A stretch of DNA of 64,000 nucleotides from Oscillospiraceae bacterium (GTDB lineage Bacteria > Bacillota > Clostridia > Oscillospirales > Oscillospiraceae): the NCBI GenBank assembly GCA_021769865.1, contig JAETSB010000003.1, forward strand, positions 62,001 to 126,000, given 5' to 3'. This document shows positions 22,064 to 47,282 of this stretch, one piece after another. Numbering within the stretch: position 1 is the first letter of the stretch; each line of letters opens with the position of its first letter. The notes beneath the pieces are model-generated. The model was not told the DNA's origin. It searched no databases and was given only the letters and a program-made list of their open reading frames with translations. Made by a program: the position numbers and the translations under genes.

Positions 22064-23251
22064 TTACTCCTTCACGGCGGCCTTCAGGGCCTCCACCCGG
22101 TCGGTCTTCTCCCAGGCCACGCCCAGGTCCTCCCGGCCCATGTGGCCGTAGGCGGCCAGCTTGCGGTAGATGGGCTTGCGGAGGTCCAGGTCCCGGATGA
22201 TGGCGGTGGGGCGGAGGTCAAAGACCTTCGCTACGGCCTCCTCCAGCTTGCCGTCGCTGACGGTTCCGGTGCCGAAGGTGTCCACCATGATGCTGACGGG
22301 CTTGGCGACGCCGATGGCGTAGGCCAGCTCAATCTGGCAGCGCCGGGCCAGGCCCGCGGCCACGATGTTCTTGGCCACCCAGCGGGCGGCGTAGGCGGCG
22401 GAGCGGTCCACCTTGGTGGGGTCCTTGCCGGAGAAGCAGCCGCCGCCGTGGGGGGCGCTTCCGCCGTATGTATCCACGATGATCTTCCGGCCCGTCAGCC
22501 CCGCGTCGGCGGCGGGGCCGCCCTTGACGAAGCGGCCGGTGGGGTTCACATAGTACTTGGTGTTCTCGTCCAGCATGTCGGCGGGGAGAACCTCCTTCGC
22601 CACCAGGTTGATCATGTCCCGGCGGATCTGGTCCAGGGTCACGTCCGGGTTGTGCTGGGTGGAGATGACCACGGTGTCGATGCGGACGGGGTTGTTGTTC
22701 TCGTCGTATTCCACAGTGACCTGGCTCTTGCCGTCGGGGCGCATGTAGGACACCAGGCCGCTCTTGCGGACCTTGGTCATCTGGAAGCAGAGCTTCTGGG
22801 CCAGGGACAGGGGCAGGGGCATCAGCTCCGGGGTCTCGTCGCAGGCGTAGCCGAACATCATGCCCTGATCGCCCGCGCCGTGGTTCAGCTCGGACTCCTC
22901 GTTGTTCTTGTTCTCCAGGGATTTGTCCACGCCCAGGGCGATGTCGGCGGACTGCTCGTCGATGGAGGTGATCACGCCGCAGGTGTCGCAGTCAAAGCCG
23001 TACTTGCCCCGGTCGTAGCCGATGTCCCGGACCACCTCCCGGGCAATCTTGTCGATGTCCACATAGCAGGTGGTGGTGATCTCGCCCATGACGTGGATCA
23101 GCCCGGTGCAGGCCGTGGTCTCGCAGGCCACCCGGCCCTGGGGGTCCTGGGCCAGGATGGCGTCCAGGACGGCGTCGGAGATCTGGTCGCAGATCTTGTC
23201 GGGATGTCCCTCGGTAACGGACTCGGAGGTGAAGAGGTAATGTCTTGCCAT
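22064..23251 (-). CDS. metK: S-adenosylmethionine synthetase
   Basis: MetK makes SAM from methionine and ATP in the cytoplasm. The start is ATG 23251 after AAGGAGAACGCT; the extra N-terminal residues in the track are riboswitch leader. The 395-residue protein has all family signatures: [20 protein letters not shown], then [16 protein letters not shown] (the GAGDQG hexapeptide), [20 protein letters not shown] with the P-loop-like GGGCFSGKD, and the C-terminal [19 protein letters not shown]. It is monocistronic and controlled by the SAM-I riboswitch upstream, a negative feedback loop on its own product. Confidence 0.98.
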
Positions 23252-23394: not shown

Positions 23395-23487
23395 TCCTCA
23401 TCTGTCGTTTCCGCCGGATTTGGCACCTTTCAAACGCAGGTTGCCGTGGCTTCATCGGGCCGTTCCCTCCGCCACTCTCGATAAGGA
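23395..23487 (-). ncRNA. SAM-I (S-box) riboswitch aptamer
   Basis: The minus-strand RNA shows the S-box core in order: P1 TCCTTATC closed by GATGAGGA at the far end, GAGAGTGGCGGAGGGAACGG, CCCGATGAAGCCACGGCAAC, then AAAGGTGCCAAATCC. The conserved GAGGGA, GATGAAGCC, CGGCAACC and GGTGCCAAATCC blocks make this a confident call. When SAM is bound, the downstream terminator should form and shut off metK. Confidence 0.95.
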
Positions 23488-23595: not shown

Positions 23596-23624
23596 GTGAC
23601 TTTTTCCTGGGAACGGGGTATAAT
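23596..23624 (+). promoter_or_regulatory. Promoter of the rhomboid-like/LtaS-like operon
   Basis: GTGACT, 17 bases, TATAAT, about 42 bases before the TTG start at 23666. The -35 box is weak. Confidence 0.65.
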
Positions 23625-23665: not shown

Positions 23666-24535
23666 TTGAGAAAGCTGAACAGCGCTATGGAGCGCTTCGC
23701 GCTCCGGCACCCCAACTTCGGCATCCCCAATCTCATGCTGTACATCGTCATTGGAAACGTCGCCGCCTTCTTCCTGCTGCGCCTGACCAATTACCAGGCC
23801 TACCTGGCCATGGTCTTCGAATGGAGCAGCATCCTGCATTTCCAGCTCTGGCGGCTGGTGTCCTTCATCTTCGTGCCCCAGTCTACGGAACCCTTCAGCC
23901 TGATTTTGTCCCTCTACTTCATGTACTTCATCGGCTCCATGCTGGAGCGGGAGTGGGGCACGCCGAAGTTCAACCTCTACTATCTCTCCGGCGTGGTTCT
24001 GACTATCCTCACCGGCATCATCAGCCACTACGCCTTCGGCGTGGGCATCCTGGCGGGGACCTATTATGTGAATATGTCCATGTTCCTGGCCTTTGCCGCG
24101 CTGTACCCCGACGCCCGGCTGATGCTGTTCTATATCATCCCGGTCAAGGCCAAGTGGTTGGCCTTGGCGGACGCGGCCCTCTTCGCCGTGGACACCGTCG
24201 CCGCCCTGCTGCGGGGGGACTGGCTCAGCGCCCTGCTGCCCGTCATCGCCCTCTTGAACTTCCTGATCTTCTTCTGGTGCGAGATCGTGGACCAGATCGA
24301 CCGGCGGCGGGGCTATGCCCGGCACCGGAACTCCCACCAGACCATCCAGTTCAAGTCCGCCGTCCGCCAGCAGCGGAAGAAGGAGGCCCAGCAGGGCTAC
24401 CGCCACAAGTGCTCCGTCTGCGGCCGGACCGACACGGACTATCCGGACCTGGAATTCCGCTACTGCTCCCGCTGCGCCGGATACCACTGCTTCTGCGCGG
24501 ACCACATTTTTAATCACGAGCATTTCAAGGAGTGA
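23666..24535 (+). CDS. Rhomboid-like membrane protein without the GxSG serine motif, with a C-terminal zinc-binding tail
   Basis: The start is probably TTG 23666, eight bases after GGGAGG (289 aa); the track start lies upstream of that site. Six or so hydrophobic segments have the rhomboid layout: LWRLVSFIFVP, then YFMYFIGSMLEREWGTPKFN (the family's YxxGxxLExxxGxxxF pattern). Where the catalytic GxSG should be the sequence is YYVNMSMFLAF, and no matching histidine is evident later, so it is likely a pseudoprotease. The C-terminal tail has a Cys/His set (CSVCGRT, YCSRCAGYHCFCADHIFNH) that could bind zinc. It is co-transcribed with the LtaS-like gene six bases downstream, so a role in envelope polymer synthesis is plausible. 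Confidence 0.75.
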   Translation: MRKLNSAMERFALRHPNFGIPNLMLYIVIGNVAAFFLLRLTNYQAYLAMVFEWSSILHFQLWRLVSFIFVPQSTEPFSLILSLYFMYFIGSMLEREWGTPKFNLYYLSGVVLTILTGIISHYAFGVGILAGTYYVNMSMFLAFAALYPDARLMLFYIIPVKAKWLALADAALFAVDTVAALLRGDWLSALLPVIALLNFLIFFWCEIVDQIDRRRGYARHRNSHQTIQFKSAVRQQRKKEAQQGYRHKCSVCGRTDTDYPDLEFRYCSRCAGYHCFCADHIFNHEHFKE

Positions 24536-24541
24536 GCCTGT

Positions 24542-26389
24542 TTGAAATATCGCCTTTCCCTGCCCCTCTCCCTCCTCGCCGCCGTACTCCTGTCGGGGGG
24601 GATCACCCTGCTGGCCCTCTGGTGCCAGCCCAATTCCTTCCGGGGGCTGCTGTCCGGCTTCCTCCGCCAGCCCCTGCTGATCGTCCTGAACGCCCTGCCC
24701 ATCGGCCTTTTGGTTCTGGCGGCGGCGGCGTTGTTTCGCAATGTCTTCTTCGGCGCGGCGCTGGTGAATCTGGCCGCCGGGGCATTGTCCATCGCCAACC
24801 GGGTGAAAATCGAGGTCCGGGACGAGCCGGTGTTCCCCCGGGACTTCGCCCTGCTCAAGGAGGTGGGCAGCGCCCTGGAGAGCTATGACATCCGCTTCCC
24901 CGTCCCGCAGATCGCGGCGGTGGTCCTGGTGACCGCCGCCCTGCTGGCACTGGGCGCGCTTGTCGGCTGCGAGCCCTTCCCTGTGAAGAGCCTCCGGGGC
25001 TGGGTGGGAAGCCTTTTGGGCTTTGCCGCCGGCTTCGCGGCCCTGACGGGGCTGATCTTCACCCTTTACGCCTCCAGGGACCTCTATCAGTCCTTCCACG
25101 TCAGCAACGCCGAGTATGTCCCCGCCGTCTTCAATGACCTGGGCTTTCCCTACGCCTTTTGCCACCACTTCACCACCTATCTCGTCGACCGGCCCGAGGG
25201 CTTCAGCCGCGCCGAGGCGGAGGGCTGGGAGACCGGGGACCTCCCCGGCCAGGGGAAGGCCGTCAGCGTCGTCATGGTGATGAACGAGGCGTTTTCCGAC
25301 ATCACCGACGCGGACGTATTCTCCTTCTCGGAGGAGGACGACCCCCTGCCCAACCTCCACGCCCTCCGGGAGGACCCCCACGCCCTCAGCGGCCACGTGA
25401 TCGTCCCCGGCTTCGCCGGGGGCACCGCCAACACGGAGTTCGACGTGCTGACCGGGATGCAGACCAACGCCCTCTCCGCCTCCACCACCTCCGCCATGCG
25501 GGTGGTGAACCGGAACCTGGACAGCCTGTTCCGGGTCTTCGGGAACGACGGCTATGAGACCTCCTTCTTCCACCCGGGGGACAACTGGTTCTACAACCGG
25601 GAAAACGTCTACCGCTGGTTCGGCGCGGAGGAGACCCGGTTTGTGGGGGACATGGAGGCCCCGGAGTACAAGGGCCGCTGGGTCACCGACGACTACGCGG
25701 CGGGCCTCATTGAGGAGGACTTCGAGCAGGCGGAGGGCCCCCTCTTTCACTTCACCACCACCATCCAGAACCACATGTCCTACACCGCCGACAAGTACGG
25801 GCCGGACTACGACTTCCCCCCCACGGGGGTCCCCGGCCTCTCGGAGGAGGTGGAGACGCTTCTCAACGTCTACGTGGAGGGTCTCCGGGACGCGGACGCC
25901 ATGCTGGGCCGCCTGTGGAACTACTTCAACACTCGGGAGGAGCCCATGGTCCTGGTCTACTGGGGGGACCACCTGCCCTACCTGGGAAACGACATGCTGG
26001 GCTACAAGCAGCTTGGGCTGGACGTGGCCCCCGGGCCGGAGGGGCAGGAGAACCTGGCGGCCTACCAGACCCCCTTCGTCATCTGGGCCAACGCCGCGGC
26101 GGCGGAAGCCCTGGACTGGGAAAACGCCGTGGAGGCCCTGGACCTTAAGGAGACCGTCTCCGCCTGCTTCCTGGGGGCGGCGGTACTGGAGCTGACGGGC
26201 CGGGGGGAGGAGAGCCCCTGGTTCTCTTTCCTGAACCAGCTCCGCCGGGAGCTTCCCGTGGTGCAGAAAACCGTCTGTCAGCTGCCCGACGGTTCCATGA
26301 CCGAAGAGCTAGGTCCCGAACAGCAAGACCTTCTTCAGAAGTGGCGGCGCTGGAGCTATTACAAGCTCCAGTACAAGGAGGTCCCATGA
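24542..26389 (+). CDS. LTA synthase family membrane sulfatase-fold enzyme
   Basis: It starts at TTG 24542, following AAGGAGTGAGCCTGT (615 aa). The N-terminal third has about five membrane segments, and the rest is an extracellular alkaline phosphatase-fold domain of the LtaS type. Visible motifs: VMVMNEAFSDITD (place of the catalytic residue and first metal ligand), GGTANTEFDVLTGMQ, FFHPGDNWFYNRENVY and LVYWGDHLPYLG. In LtaS the nucleophile is a threonine and the enzyme polymerises glycerol phosphate; NEAFSD rather than S-ES-F and GGTANTEF rather than GKTSDAEF mark it as a more distant family member. It probably transfers phosphoglycerol or phosphoethanolamine to a surface polymer. Its stop overlaps the next start. 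Confidence 0.87.
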   Translation: MKYRLSLPLSLLAAVLLSGGITLLALWCQPNSFRGLLSGFLRQPLLIVLNALPIGLLVLAAAALFRNVFFGAALVNLAAGALSIANRVKIEVRDEPVFPRDFALLKEVGSALESYDIRFPVPQIAAVVLVTAALLALGALVGCEPFPVKSLRGWVGSLLGFAAGFAALTGLIFTLYASRDLYQSFHVSNAEYVPAVFNDLGFPYAFCHHFTTYLVDRPEGFSRAEAEGWETGDLPGQGKAVSVVMVMNEAFSDITDADVFSFSEEDDPLPNLHALREDPHALSGHVIVPGFAGGTANTEFDVLTGMQTNALSASTTSAMRVVNRNLDSLFRVFGNDGYETSFFHPGDNWFYNRENVYRWFGAEETRFVGDMEAPEYKGRWVTDDYAAGLIEEDFEQAEGPLFHFTTTIQNHMSYTADKYGPDYDFPPTGVPGLSEEVETLLNVYVEGLRDADAMLGRLWNYFNTREEPMVLVYWGDHLPYLGNDMLGYKQLGLDVAPGPEGQENLAAYQTPFVIWANAAAAEALDWENAVEALDLKETVSACFLGAAVLELTGRGEESPWFSFLNQLRRELPVVQKTVCQLPDGSMTEELGPEQQDLLQKWRRWSYYKLQYKEVP

Positions 26390-26901
26390 GGGCCCGGCCC
26401 CTGGCCCTCTGCGGCGTGCTGACGGCCCTGGCGGTGGTGCTGCTGTGCCTTGGCGGCGTGATTCCCGGCGCGGTCTTCTGCGCCCCCATCCTGGCCATGG
26501 CCGCGCTCCTGCCGGTATTGGAGGAGCTGGGCCCCAAGGCCGCCGGGACGGCCTACGCCGCCGTGTCCATCCTGGCCCTGCTGCTGGTGCCGGACCGGGA
26601 GACCGCCTTCGTCTACCTGTTTTTCGGCTGGTACCCCATCCTCCGGCCCAAAATCGCCGCCCTGCCCTCCCGGCCCCTGCGGGTCCTGGCCCGGGTCGCG
26701 GTGTGCAGCGCCGCCGCCCTGGCGCTCTACGGGCTGGTCCTGCGGCTCATGGGCCTGACGGAGGACCTGCTGAATTCCGTCTGGTACGTCAACGCGGCGC
26801 TGCTGGCGGCGGGGAACGTGGTCTTCCTGCTGACGGATTCCACCCTGGCCCGGCTGACCAATATCTGGCACTGGAAGCTGAAAAAATATTTATACCGATA
26901 A
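26386..26901 (+). CDS. Small polytopic membrane protein, unknown function
   Basis: The true start is ATG 26386 (ATGA overlap with the previous stop, AAGGAGG before it), giving 171 residues. Four to five hydrophobic segments are evident: LALCGVLTALAVVLLCLGGV, AVFCAPILAMAALLPVL, AAVSILALLLVP, and two more after residue 110. A polar loop has DRETAFVYLFFGWYPILRPK. The layout is like small ECF-type or DUF membrane proteins, but no family can be assigned. Translational coupling to the LtaS-like enzyme suggests a shared envelope role. Confidence 0.78.
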   Translation: MRARPLALCGVLTALAVVLLCLGGVIPGAVFCAPILAMAALLPVLEELGPKAAGTAYAAVSILALLLVPDRETAFVYLFFGWYPILRPKIAALPSRPLRVLARVAVCSAAALALYGLVLRLMGLTEDLLNSVWYVNAALLAAGNVVFLLTDSTLARLTNIWHWKLKKYLYR

Positions 26902-26922: not shown

Positions 26923-27780
26923 ATGAAAACCGCGCTGGTCCTGGAGGGCGGAGCCCTGCGGACCATCTATTCCTCCGGCGTGTGTGACGCCTTTCTGGAC
27001 GGCGGTCTGCCCCTGCCGGACTACACCCTGGGGGTTTCCGCCGGGATCGCTTACGGCGTCAGCTACCTCTCCCGGCAGAGCCGCCGGAACCTGCAATTGA
27101 TCTGCCGCTACGCCGGCGACAAGCGCTATATGGGCTGGCGGAATCTGGCGAACCCCAGAAACCGTTCCTACTTCGGCCTCAAGTTCGCCTATGAAACCAT
27201 CCCCAACGAGCTGATCCCCTTTGACTACGACGCCTTCGCCGCCTATCCCGGCCGGGCGGAGGCGGTGGTGACAAACCTGATTACCGGGGAGGCGGAATAC
27301 CTGCCCGTCCCCCGGCGGGACTCCCCCAATCTGCTGCTGGAGGCCACCTGCGCCATTCCGCTGATGTTCCCCGTCATCCACATCGGCGGCCAGCCCTATC
27401 TGGACGGCGGCTGCGCCGACGCCATCCCCTGGCGGCGGGCCTTCCGGGAGGGCTGCGACCGGGTCGTCGTGGTGCTAACCCGGGAGCGGGACTACTACAA
27501 GAAGCCGGGCCGGTCCGACCGGGCCATTGCCCGGGCCTTCAAGCGCTACCCCAACTTCCAGGAGACCATGCGGACCCGGTCGGAGCGGTACAACGCCTGC
27601 CGGGAGGCGCTGTTCGATCTGGAGCGGCAGGGCCGGGTCCTGATCATCGCCCCGGAGGACACCTTGGGCTGCTCCCGGACGGAGAAGGACCTGGACACCC
27701 TCCGTTCCCTGTGGCAGGAGGGTTACTTCGACGGGCGGCGGGAGCTGGACCGGGTCCGAGAGTTCTGGACCAAAGAATAA
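26923..27780 (+). CDS. Patatin-like phospholipase
   Basis: This is a 285-residue serine hydrolase of the patatin/RssA type that cleaves acyl chains from lipids. The oxyanion loop EGGALRTIYSSG is at the start, the nucleophile is in LGVSAGIAYGVSYL (GxSxG), and the catalytic aspartate is in LDGGCADAIPW (DGG). The C-terminal third has the extra region seen in the DUF6363-bearing subgroup (RYNACREALFDLERQGRVLI). No signal peptide is present. The ribosome site is GAGGTGATACC. It follows the membrane-protein gene by 21 bases, so it may belong to the same operon, which ends in a terminator. Confidence 0.93.
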   Translation: MKTALVLEGGALRTIYSSGVCDAFLDGGLPLPDYTLGVSAGIAYGVSYLSRQSRRNLQLICRYAGDKRYMGWRNLANPRNRSYFGLKFAYETIPNELIPFDYDAFAAYPGRAEAVVTNLITGEAEYLPVPRRDSPNLLLEATCAIPLMFPVIHIGGQPYLDGGCADAIPWRRAFREGCDRVVVVLTRERDYYKKPGRSDRAIARAFKRYPNFQETMRTRSERYNACREALFDLERQGRVLIIAPEDTLGCSRTEKDLDTLRSLWQEGYFDGRRELDRVREFWTKE

Positions 27781-27782
27781 GG

Positions 27783-27826
27783 AACGCCCCCTGATGGAAT
27801 CCATTCCACCAGGGGGCGTTTTCTTC
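27783..27826 (+). terminator. Terminator after the patatin gene
   Basis: AACGCCCCCTG.TGGAAT/ATTCCACCAGGGGGCGTT followed by TTCTT. Confidence 0.9.
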
Positions 27827-34645: not shown

Positions 34646-35164
34646 TTACAGCTTTTTCTCGTAGCAGTTCAGGATCTCGTGGATGTAACCCTGGAAGAAA
34701 AACTCCGTGCTCCCGGCGAAGCGGTAGCCGATGGAGGGATATAGATGATTGGCGGGGATGTTTCCCTCCCAGGTGTCCAGGCGGATGACGGTCTTGCCTT
34801 GGGCCCGGGCGGTCTCCTCGCAGAAGGCCGCCATCTGCTTGGCGTACCCCTTCCCGGACCGGCCGGGGTGGATGCAGAGGGTGTGAATCACCCCCACCTC
34901 CTCCCGCTCCGCCGGGATGGACCAGGGGATGTTGTCGTACTCGGGAAGCTGAATCCCGTTGAGGTTCACCACGCCCCAGAGGGCGCCGTCCTCCTCCCCC
35001 ACGTAGAGGGTCCCGGCCTCCAGCACCTGGCGGGCGCTGTCCACGGTGGGATAGGTTCCCCGGAGCCAGTTGGTATAGACGGGGCCCTGGTCCTCCTTGT
35101 CGAAGATGGCCTCGTAGATGGCCCCGATCCCGGGCAGGTCAGCGGTCGTGGCTTTACGAATCAT
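34646..35164 (-). CDS. GNAT family N-acetyltransferase
   Basis: The true start is ATG 35164 (AGGAG upstream) inside the 3' end of ftsH, giving 172 residues. The N-terminus [20 protein letters not shown] is typical of GNATs, the acetyl-CoA loop reads IHPGRSGKGYAKQMAAFCEE, and the late YPSIGYRFAGSTEFFF fits the last strands. It overlaps ftsH by 11 bases, so it is translationally coupled to the protease gene, an unusual pairing. Substrate unknown. Confidence 0.9.
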   Translation of the reverse strand: MIRKATTADLPGIGAIYEAIFDKEDQGPVYTNWLRGTYPTVDSARQVLEAGTLYVGEEDGALWGVVNLNGIQLPEYDNIPWSIPAEREEVGVIHTLCIHPGRSGKGYAKQMAAFCEETARAQGKTVIRLDTWEGNIPANHLYPSIGYRFAGSTEFFFQGYIHEILNCYEKKL

Positions 35165-37361
35165 TCCGTTTCTCCTCTCCATCCGGTTCCGCTTCCGGGG
35201 ACGGCTCCGCGGCCTCCGCCCCGGGGGCCTCCTCCGGCTGCAAGGCGGCCTCCGCCTCCCCGGGGGCCAGAATCTTCTCGGAGATCATGTGGACCTTCTT
35301 CGCCGCCGGCTCGATTTCCGCCGGGCGGGTGGAGGCGTAGGGGTTCTCCACCAGGGCCGGGTCCCGGCCCTCGATGATGGCCACCATCTCCGCGCCGGTG
35401 ATGGTCTCCTTCTCCAGGAGGTAGGCCACCACCTTGTCCATGTCCTCCCGGTTCTCCCGGATGACCTCCACGGCGGTCTTGTACGCCTCGTCCAGCAGGA
35501 CCTTCACCGCCTTGTCCATCCGGGCGGCGGTGTCCTGGGCGCAGTCCATGCCGTAGCCCCCGTCCAGGTACTGGTTCCGCCGGGAGGCCAGGGCCATCAT
35601 GCCGAACTCCTCGCTCATGCCGAACATGGCCACCATGTTCCGCGCCACGTTGGTCGCGTCCTGGATGTCCTGGGACGCGCCGTTGGTCATGGTGTCCATC
35701 ACCACCTCCTCGGCGGCCCGGCCGCCCATGGAAACGGTGATCTTCGCCATCAGCTCTTCCTTCGTCCGAAGCTCCGTCTTGTCCTCCTCGGGCATCAGCA
35801 GAGTGTAGCCCAGGGAGCCCTGGGTGTGGGGGACGATGGTGATCTTCTGCACCGGCTCGGTGTTCTTCTGCTTATAGGCAACCATGGCGTGGCCCACTTC
35901 GTGATAGGCCACCAGCTTCTTCTCGAACTCCGTGAGGACGCTGCCCTTCTTCTCCGTGCCGGCGATGACCAGCTCGAAGGCGGCCAGCATGTCCTCCTGG
36001 CTCACCAGCTTCCGGCCCTTCCGCACGGCCCGGAGGGCCGCCTCGTTGACGAGGTTGGCCAGGTCCGCGCCCACGCACCCGGCCGTGGCCAGGGCGACCT
36101 TTTTGAGGTTCACGTCCTCCCCCAGCTTGATGTTCCGGGTGTGGACCTCCAGCGTCGCGATGCGCCCCGCCAGGTTGGGCCGGTCGATGGTGATGCGCCG
36201 GTCGAACCGGCCGGGACGGAGGAGGGCCTGGTCCAGCACCTCCGGGCGGTTGGTGGCCGCCAGAAGGATGACGCCCTTGGTGGGGTCGAAGCCGTCCATC
36301 TCCGCCAGGAGCTGGTTCAGCGTCTGCTCCCGCTCGTCGTTGCCGCCCATGCGGTTGTCCCGGGATTTGCCGATGGTGTCGATCTCGTCGATGAAGACGA
36401 TGCAGGGGGCGACCTTGGACGCCTCCTTAAAGAGGTCCCGGACCCGGGACGCGCCCACGCCCACGAACATCTCCACAAAGTCGGAGCCGCTGATGGAGAA
36501 GAAGGGCACGTTGGCCTCCCCCGCCACGGCCTTGGCAAGCAGCGTCTTGCCGGTGCCCGGAGGGCCCACCAGCAGGGCGCCCTTGGGCAGCTTCGCGCCG
36601 ATCTCCGTGTACTTGCCGGGGTTGTGGAGGAAATCGATGATCTCCGTCAGGGACTCCTTGGCCTCGTCCTGGCCCGCCACATCCCGGAAGGTGACGCCGG
36701 TCTGCTTTTCCATATAGACCTTGGCGTTGGACTTGCCCACGCCGCCGATGCCGCCGATGCCGCCCATGCCCTTTTTGGCCATCCAGTTCATCACCAGGCT
36801 CATCACCAGGATGATGATGAAGAAGGGGGCCAGGTTCACCAGGAACAGCAGAATGGGGCTCATGGGGGGCTGGTAGTCCTGGTTGATGCGGATGCCCTCG
36901 CCCTCGGCATAGTTTCCAGACTGCCGGTTCAACTCCTGAATGTGCTCCACAAGGGCGTCGTAAGACTGGAGCTGGACGGTGAAAAACTCCAGGGACAGCT
37001 TCAGCTCCCGGCCCTCTGCGTCCTTGTGGGTGTAAACGGCGGAGCCGTCCTCCAGGGTGGATTTGGTGTATTCCATCCCCTCGCTGTTGGTGTAGACGTA
37101 GCCGTCCACGGGGGTAATAATGATAATGGACTCGCTGTTGTCAAAGTCCACTCCGGCGACCTTGCCGAAGTCCAGCATGTCCAGGAACTCGCTGTACTCC
37201 AGCTCCACAGAGCTGGCCTGGTGGCCCATGCTGGTCATGTAGGTGGTGGCGTAGCTCACCAGCACCGCCAGCAGCACGGCCCAGCAGATCAGGTGGATAA
37301 AGCCCCGCCAGTTGCTGTTTTTGTTCTGGTCCGGCTTCTTTTTGTTGTTGTTTTGGTCCAT
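35154..37361 (-). CDS. ftsH: ATP-dependent zinc metalloprotease FtsH
   Basis: Starting at ATG 37361 (AAGGAG 11 bases before), the protein is 735 residues, longer than the usual 610-680. FtsH pulls membrane and soluble proteins apart and degrades them. Parts in order: TM1 near 18-37, an outside domain to about 160 (longer than usual), TM2 near 170-190, the AAA+ domain with Walker A GPPGTGKT, Walker [13 protein letters not shown] and the second region of homology, then the zinc site [10 protein letters not shown]. The C-terminal tail of about 60 residues is rich in Glu, Ala and Pro ([20 protein letters not shown]). It is the first gene of a unit with a GNAT gene. Confidence 0.97.
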
Positions 37362-46446: not shown

Positions 46447-46500
46447 GGTCACCAAAAAGAGAGAGACAGGCCAAAGCCTGTCTCTCTCTTTTTGGTGACC
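46447..46500. terminator. Long hairpin terminator that includes the tRNA-Lys 3' end
   Basis: GGTCACCAAAAAGAGAGAGA.. pairs perfectly over 25 bases with ..TCTCTCTCTTTTTGGTGACC across a CAAA loop. It can serve the FrhB-like gene and the minus-strand tRNA operon. Its right arm overlaps the last bases of tRNA-Lys (GGTCACCA on the minus strand). Confidence 0.85.
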
Positions 46501-46568
46501 CAGCGGGGATTCGAACCCCGGACCCACTGCTTAAAAGGCAGTTGCTCTGCCGACTGAGCTACTGGATC
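46493..46568 (-). tRNA. tRNA-Lys (UUU)
   Basis: 76 bases with encoded CCA. Acceptor GATCCAG/CTGGGTC, anticodon loop CTTTTAA (TTT), T loop GTTCGAATC. It is the last gene of a five-tRNA minus-strand cluster. Confidence 0.96.
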
Positions 46569-46868
46569 ATCATCGTCGGAACAAACTGCACTCCATGAAT
46601 CCCGCCCTGCGGGCAGGCTTCACTCCGTTCCGTTTGTTCTTCCTCTCCCCACAAAATCTGCGGATTTTGTGGGGGGTACGCGGGGAAACGCTATGCACGG
46701 CTTCGCTGCGCTGCCTCCGTTCCAACTCCCGCCCTTCGGGGCCCCCGCCGCAAACCAGCGCAGCGTTTGCGGTGGGGAGAGGAGGGGCAAAGGAGCGGAA
46801 CGCAGTCCTCGCCAGAAGCCGGAGGCTGGCGGTGGGGACGGAGTGGAGCGGATTTCGCCCCGACGACT
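46569..46868. other. 300-base spacer in the tRNA cluster, rich in hairpins
   Basis: No gene is credible here; the ORFs called are shadows. Perfect hairpins include CCCCACAAAATC/GATTTTGTGGGG around 46656-46683 and CCGCAAAC/GTTTGCGG with a CAGCGCAGC loop (46748-46772). A related hairpin with the same loop is at 62331-62367, also by a tRNA gene. Confidence 0.7.
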
Positions 46869-46943
46869 TGGCAGGGACGGCTGGACTCGAACCAGCGCAT
46901 GAGGGAGTCAAAGTCCCTTGCCTTACCGCTTGGCTACGTCCCC
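46869..46943 (-). tRNA. tRNA-Gln (UUG)
   Basis: 75 bases with encoded CCA. Anticodon loop CTTTGAC (TTG), T arm CTGGTTCGAGTCCAG, 5' GGGGACGTAGCCAAGCGG. Confidence 0.95.
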
Positions 46944-46995
46944 GTGCCGGAAATAAGCGCGGGGACCGGGGAAAAGCCCCGATCCCCTGCTCCTG

Positions 46996-47072
<77 letters not shown>

Positions 47073-47121
47073 CACATATCAACTGTCTGGAAGCCGCTGG
47101 ACGAACGCCCTGGGAAGAGCT

Positions 47122-47198
47122 TGGCACGCCAGAAGGGACTCGAACCCCTGGCCTACTGCTTAGAAGGCAGTTGCTCTATCCGGCTGAGCTACTGGCGC
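47122..47198 (-). tRNA. tRNA-Arg (UCU)
   Basis: 77 bases with encoded CCA. Anticodon loop CTTCTAA (TCT); acceptor GCGCCAG/CTGGCGT. Confidence 0.95.
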
Positions 47199-47207
47199 AA
47201 ATTTGGA

Positions 47208-47282
47208 TGGAGCAGGTGACGAGAATCGAACTCGCATCCCCAGCTTGGAAGGCTGGTGCCCTGACCATTGTGCTACACCTGC
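47208..47282 (-). tRNA. tRNA-Gly (UCC)
   Basis: 75 bases with encoded CCA (3' CTCCA). Anticodon loop CTTCCAA (TCC); acceptor GCAGGTG/CACCTGC. It is the first gene of the cluster. Confidence 0.95.

Follow-up and report, generated by a model that had tools for sequence, protein, structure and literature searches.

A predicted rhomboid pseudoprotease and a putative GacH-like phosphoglycerol transferase at a recent gene junction in Oscillibacter

Rhomboid pseudoproteases have been worked out in eukaryotes, with the Derlins and iRhoms as examples. For bacteria, the searchable literature on non-catalytic rhomboid roles yielded only an active rhomboid with an additional adaptor role, YqgP of Bacillus subtilis, which serves as an adaptor for FtsH even without its serine and carries a cytosolic domain that binds Mn and Zn (PMC7231995). 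Bilayer thinning comes with the rhomboid fold in general and extends to its pseudoproteases (review PMC12615303). Among enzymes of the LtaS superfamily, residue roles have been assigned for LtaS, including the catalytic threonine and a second glycerol phosphate (GroP) site comprising Ser-486, Asn-488 and His-489 (PMC4192460), and Streptococcus pyogenes lacking GacH is zinc-sensitive (PMC12282279). Here we describe a 64,000-nucleotide stretch of the genome of a gut bacterium of the Oscillospiraceae (hereafter the window; GCA_021769865.1, contig JAETSB010000003.1, positions 62,001 to 126,000) in which a gene for a rhomboid-like protein is followed by genes for an LtaS-superfamily enzyme, a 171-aa membrane protein and a patatin-like phospholipase (Table 1). 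The best overall explanation, to which we assign a probability of about 0.5, is that the row comprises two modules, one encoding a Derlin-like pseudoprotease and the other a GacH-like transferase.

A recent junction of two modules

The coordinates and order of the genes are as a preliminary description of the locus reported them: the rhomboid-like and enzyme genes are 6 nt apart, the enzyme and small-protein genes overlap by 4 nt, and the patatin gene begins 21 nt further on. The promoter candidate upstream of the first gene matches 10 of 12 consensus bases, and across the region two promoter-like sites were observed where shuffled sequences predict 0.4. Because this promoter and the hairpin behind the fourth gene bracket such closely spaced genes, the four probably form one transcript in this genome, and to that extent the operon of the preliminary description stands. 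The gene calls of the row are supported by relatives. The relatives are Oscillibacter and other Oscillospiraceae, which bears out the taxon guessed in the preliminary description and places the genome in Oscillibacter.

The row is not conserved as a unit. We retrieved the neighbourhoods of the rhomboid-like and enzyme genes from numerous congeners and predicted their genes using a codon model fitted to the window. Among these, the enzyme gene comes directly behind the rhomboid-like gene only in the window, G014, G032, G002 and G036. In a collection of one genome per species, 69 Oscillospiraceae loci offered enough downstream sequence, and the two genes adjoin in this way in only four of them, all from nearest relatives. 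The rhomboid-family tree groups the window with G014 and G032 (100/98), and the sister of this clade, G033, lacks the junction; G002 and G036 are absent from the tree and were placed among the nearest relatives by sequence (82% identity, and 98% over a fragment). The preliminary description had named a lack of conserved gene order as refuting a single envelope operon, and adjacency in 4/69 loci rules out such an operon as a conserved unit. The link between the rhomboid-like gene and the enzyme gene is a recent junction of two independent modules in one Oscillibacter subclade, and gene adjacency alone is misleading here.

The second module is itself more coherent. The enzyme and the 171-aa protein are encoded side by side in 18 of 23 loci of the genus, and the patatin gene comes next in eight (nine if a locus with an uncalled small-protein gene is counted). 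In most Oscillibacter genomes the pair lies elsewhere, beside unrelated genes; the usual neighbours of the enzyme gene encode an alanine-type symporter, CobW chaperones and UvrC-, HPr-, rubrerythrin- and Fur-like proteins (those outside the Pfam scan were named from sequence by eye).

These arrangements also bear on the idea of a functional operon for the envelope, with the pseudo-rhomboid supporting or regulating the LtaS-like enzyme and the patatin remodelling the lipid donor or anchor. Tight spacing, a single upstream promoter and the hairpin in this genome would suit it, as would the company of enzyme, small protein and patatin in 8/23 loci of the genus. We nevertheless consider it improbable, given that the rhomboid-enzyme adjacency is confined to one subclade, that the two modules are separate in most of the genus, and that no polymer gene was seen beside either module in the neighbourhoods of the genus loci (presence of other envelope genes was judged from these neighbourhoods). 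The dedicated surface-polymer operon that had been proposed is thus not borne out.

On the other side of the rhomboid-like gene, metK lies within four genes in 31 of 80 pseudo-rhomboid loci and is directly divergent in 24 of 72. It is the sole recurrent neighbour within that distance, the next best reaching 9/80. As metK has a promoter of its own and an S-adenosylmethionine (SAM) riboswitch, its recurrence probably reflects merely a shared intergenic region. Separately, a gene for a protein of ~1600 aa with a weak cytidylyltransferase match lies behind the pseudo-rhomboid gene in eight Oscillibacter genomes (for example, L043:4620-9416, minus strand).

The rhomboid-like protein and its tail

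The rhomboid-like protein matches Pfam Rhomboid above the cut-off (6.5e-6), with the match confined to residues 59-184. An AlphaFold2 model built from 54 relatives has a mean predicted local distance difference test score (pLDDT) of 92.9, and in a Foldseek search of the PDB the only matches at a probability of at least 0.9 were GlpG, human Derlin-1 and yeast Der1. The predicted fold is the six-helix rhomboid fold with the WR motif in loop L1, where W62 and R63 are invariant.

The active site, by contrast with those of GlpG-type proteases, is dismantled. The GxSG motif is replaced in the family by NxS(L/M). The preliminary description was right that GxSG is missing, but a serine persists in the corresponding stretch of transmembrane helix 4 (TM4): S138, within NMSM, is Ser in 48 of the 54 relatives, with Ala in two, Thr in two, Val in one and Ile in one, and some relatives across the phylum have Ala, Val, Thr or Gly. 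A comparison of the family with four canonical rhomboids by hhalign produced no usable alignment, so it is the position of the motif and the fold, and not alignment statistics, that make S138 the equivalent of the rhomboid serine. No histidine occurs in any TM6 column of the 54 relatives (49 have Asn198), and the TM6 histidine is likewise missing in relatives from other classes and families across the phylum. In the GlpG alignment the positions of the L1 His and Asn, which have catalytic roles in GlpG, are occupied by non-catalytic residues such as Phe and Pro. A conserved Ser-His pair, which would restore rhomboid activity, was looked for in the 54 relatives and not found, and the call of a rhomboid pseudoprotease without a cutting dyad, predicted from sequence, therefore stands.

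S138 might still act with a non-histidine base such as N198, or as a lone nucleophile, in a protein that remains a protease. The prevalence of Ser (48/54) and Asn198 (49/54) would fit such chemistry; replacement of the serine in 6/54 relatives and in others across the phylum, together with the complete loss of the TM6 His, of the L1 His/Asn and of GxSG, makes it very improbable. No second rhomboid was seen in the same genome, which is 81% complete. In three genomes of one genus, an ordinary GASG/His rhomboid is encoded ~2.5 kb upstream of a tail-less pseudo-rhomboid, a possible protease-pseudoprotease pair.

The Cys/His tail noted in the preliminary description is confirmed and strongly conserved. 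All 21 tailed relatives examined from the order have its eight Cys and His residues unchanged, and tailed relatives in other classes and families of the phylum retain them as well; a further cysteine, C275, is not kept outside the order. The sequence suggests a two-zinc-type, zinc-binding domain, which by analogy with GlpG topology would be cytosolic. Pfam returned weak matches only (L37ae, DUF7577, PLATZ). The spacing of the residues may resemble that of a B-box, which we treat as a lead only. Tailed and tail-less members of the family are split by one fully supported branch (100/100), and one genome, G050, holds both kinds. The family was matched in 34 of 37 genomes searched in the genus and in 28 of 399 genomes of a phylum-wide sample, and a profile built from 21 tailed rows matched at least 573 stretches that carry tail motifs in the genome collection. 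Within Oscillospiraceae this barely studied family is widespread; across the phylum its occurrence is patchy.

Several comparisons connect the family with Derlins. Among 295 genomes of the order, DER1 (PF04511) had seven matches below 1e-4, six of them on the pseudo-rhomboid gene; the seventh (G129) reads through two stops and was discarded. No DER1 match occurred in 14 control genomes, all with ordinary rhomboids, or in two canonical rhomboids from the same order. The DER1 matches reach 2.7e-7 and lie on the rhomboid core, and one close relative exceeds the cut-off (31.2 versus 26.6 bits), with several more just under it. A diverse sample of 43 members, into which six were taken for their DER1 matches, has 10 that match at E <1e-3. 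Against the PDB, the family profile aligned with GlpG over TM1-TM3 only; with Derlin-1 it (profile A6) aligned over positions 26-190, from TM1 through TM6 (E 0.025), and a profile of more Derlin-like members (A7) aligned from L1 on (E 0.005). Family profiles alone reach the Derlins, as phmmer with one relative matched no Derlin chain in the PDB. These data are suggestive, not conclusive, of a similarity to Derlins in the second half of the protein.

The putative phosphoglycerol transferase and its partners

The enzyme of the second module matches Pfam Sulfatase (7e-29), and hydropathy predicts ~5 N-terminal TM helices followed by an extracellular sulfatase-fold domain. Its profile finds GacH as the best PDB match (1.2e-12), followed by Listeria LtaP (3.8e-8). 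Membership of the LtaS superfamily and action outside the membrane, as previously described, both hold; the supposed divergence of the catalytic site does not. Without exception, 23 orthologues have E249, T295, D476 and H477, and these residues line up with the Glu, Thr and Asp-His of Listeria LtaS and GacH, so that a Thr nucleophile and a Glu/Asp/His metal site are features shared with LtaS and LtaP, and the threonine that the preliminary description proposed to check for is in place. A degenerate LtaS is accordingly ruled out: the active site is complete, and GGTAN is how the motif reads in GacH.

Around this core the enzyme departs from LtaS. H344, R353 and H411 are the counterparts of His-353, Arg-362 and His-422 of LtaS Lm, while Tyr351, a tyrosine shared with LtaP, takes the place of Trp-360 of LtaS. 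In the second GroP site, which is needed for chain growth in LtaS, Ser-486 gives way to Leu481, so that the site is not kept; ungapped extension places LtaS Asn-488 on N483 and His-489 on D484. Against the NCBIfam LtaS equivalog the enzyme scores 20.6, where the cut-off is 970 bits. Its sequence points to a GacH-like phosphoglycerol transferase that would transfer single units. The genome has a second LtaS-superfamily gene (651 aa), which lies between unrelated genes (G000:C1:33908-34924).

The 171-aa protein belongs to no Pfam family. Its AlphaFold2 model (pLDDT 88.0) has RibU-type S components of energy-coupling factor (ECF) transporters as its five best Foldseek matches (probability 0.99-1.00); for TmRibU the TM-score was 0.6 and the probability 1.00, but the E value 0.011. 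A small membrane protein is thus encoded, as had been described, with an ECF S-component-like fold in the model in place of the five-helix protein proposed. This likeness to RibU is a predicted one of fold, with no sequence match in Pfam or the PDB, and the label of a transporter subunit would be premature. Homologues occur in 137 of 197 genomes of the order, mostly without the enzyme. In 8 of 10 enzyme-free loci examined, the gene lies behind one for a DnaJ-TPR-Cys-rich protein, the DnaJ domain being recognised in seven. This order, a DnaJ-TPR gene with a Cys-rich end and then the 171-aa homologue, is seen in many families of the order (L193, L194, L197, L199, L200, L201, L202, L205). The search of G035 gave no close orthologue of the enzyme; there the 171-aa gene shares 1 nt with a CobW-DUF1980 gene (L210:480-1930, plus strand), an arrangement such as loss of an intervening enzyme gene would leave.

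Such neighbours could mean that metal homeostasis unites both modules, the tail sensing zinc and the enzyme and S-component-like protein belonging to a metal-responsive set. Consistent with this, genes for CobW/COG0523 chaperones lead into the genes for enzyme and small protein in several Oscillibacter genomes, and the overlap in G035 would fit as well, as would the zinc sensitivity that follows GacH loss in S. pyogenes (PMC12282279) and the response of YqgP to Mn/Zn (PMC7231995). It is a poor bet, however: the gaps between CobW and enzyme genes are 148-1330 nt, the small protein adjoins DnaJ-TPR genes in other families, and no zinc regulator or transporter was tied to the pseudo-rhomboid in the loci examined.

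Table 1. Features of the locus (positions in the window unless a locus is given)
Feature	Position	Strand	Remarks
Rhomboid-like gene	23666-24535	+	289 aa; TTG start behind GGGAGG
TM4 pseudo-active-site stretch, residues 130-148	24053-24109	+	AGTYYVNMSMFLAFAALYP; S138 within NMSM, no GxSG
Predicted cytosolic zinc-type tail, residues 245-289	24398-24532	+	C249, C252, C267, C270, C277, H280, H284, H286
LtaS-superfamily enzyme gene	24542-26389	+	615 aa
E249, metal ligand (predicted)	25286-25288	+	NEAF motif; equivalent of LtaS Lm Glu-263
T295, catalytic threonine (predicted)	25424-25426	+	GGTAN; equivalent of LtaS Lm Thr-307; aligned with GKTAD (4uoo) and GacH GGTAN
D476-H477, metal ligands (predicted)	25967-25972	+	WGDHLP; aligned with GDH of GacH and LtaS
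Small membrane protein gene	26386-26901	+	171 aa
Patatin-like phospholipase gene	26923-27780	+	285 aa; Pfam Patatin 5.9e-19, DUF6363 1.3e-19
Sigma-70-type promoter of pseudo-rhomboid gene	23596-23624	+	GTGACT-17-TATAAT; consensus match only
Hairpin between patatin gene and convergent gene	27783-27820	.	17-bp stem; probable shared terminator
metK	22064-23251	-	Divergent neighbour of pseudo-rhomboid gene; outside the system
SAM riboswitch in metK leader	23395-23487	-	RF00162, 82.4 bits; back to back with pseudo-rhomboid promoter
FtsH-type (M41) protease gene	35154-37361	-	~10.6 kb from pseudo-rhomboid gene
Ordinary rhomboid and tail-less pseudo-rhomboid (other genomes)	L113 5973-6545 and 8967-9737		Also G108:C7, G135:C54

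Proposed functions and comparison with known systems

In the mechanism we propose, the pseudo-rhomboid of the first module would sit in the cytoplasmic membrane, thin the bilayer, capture faulty or superfluous membrane proteins by their transmembrane segments and, having no dyad, pass these clients to the membrane AAA protease FtsH, while its two-zinc-type cytosolic tail would sense metal or dock that partner. In the second module (24542-26901, often with the patatin gene), the enzyme would take glycerol phosphate from phosphatidylglycerol through T295 and attach it, probably as single units, to a glycan or glycolipid outside the cell, partnered with the S-component-like membrane protein and the patatin lipase. 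The Derlin-like, FtsH-coupled, metal-tuned adaptor role rests on the YqgP precedent, the tail and the presence of FtsH, of which the genome has two copies, one in the window. (The window also holds a cluster of five tRNA genes, at 46496-47282 on the minus strand.) We regard this role as tentative, well short of even odds. By an alternative route, the pseudo-rhomboid would be an assembly, chaperone or membrane-thinning factor that works independently of FtsH. That bilayer thinning extends to pseudoproteases (PMC12615303) speaks for such a factor, as does the finding that none of the 59 fetched relatives' loci has a gene like the FtsH gene of the window, although in the one bacterial case found in which such a non-catalytic role of a rhomboid has been worked out, the protein hands over to FtsH (PMC7231995); we consider it doubtful but a serious contender.

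Our overall estimate for the two-module explanation with a Derlin-like pseudoprotease and a GacH-like transferase blends the high confidence that we place in the anatomy, the dyad loss, the conservation of the tail and the lack of conserved linkage with the much lower standing of the mechanism. Several points weigh against that explanation. Probable co-transcription in this one subclade leaves room for a recent functional tie between the modules. The similarity to Derlins is moderate and uneven, reaching only E 0.005-0.025 for Derlin-1 in the PDB, and the window protein itself has no DER1 match. With S138 retained in 89% of members, residual chemistry may persist as far as sequence alone can tell. 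Finally, FtsH binding, zinc binding and clients are all putative.

The enzyme shares the GGTANxEF and GDHLP motifs with GacH but has ~5 TM helices in ~180 residues, whereas the TM domain of GacH spans 395 residues, and no rhamnose-polysaccharide cluster of the kind that accompanies GacH was seen beside it in the genus loci. With GlpG-type rhomboid proteases (PF01694) the pseudo-rhomboid shares the fold, the WR motif in L1, the E..WG motif and an above-cut-off Pfam match; it differs in its active site, and its profile matches end around TM3. YqgP is likewise a bacterial rhomboid with a metal-binding cytosolic domain (putative here) and a serine-independent adaptor role (proposed here), yet it is active as a protease and has its metal domain at the N terminus, whereas the window protein is dyad-less and its Cys/His-rich tail is C-terminal. 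Derlins, such as human Derlin-1 and yeast Der1, share with the family a rhomboid fold without the catalytic dyad and sequence similarity that extends into TM6, along with the DER1 matches of some relatives; the family differs in being bacterial and in its zinc-type C-terminal tail, and, as bacteria lack the p97 partner, FtsH would be the counterpart. A bacterial Derlin in the full sense, that is, a protease-dead rhomboid family across the phylum that hands membrane proteins to FtsH under the control of a two-zinc cytosolic tail, seems unlikely, if far from negligible. If true, it would be a free-standing counterpart of the Derlin arm of endoplasmic-reticulum-associated degradation, beyond a side job of an active rhomboid. 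A protease-dead family with DER1 matches and an invariant zinc-type tail, conserved throughout one bacterial family and patchy in the rest of the phylum, allows the origin of Derlin-type function to be tested in a system with simple genetics.

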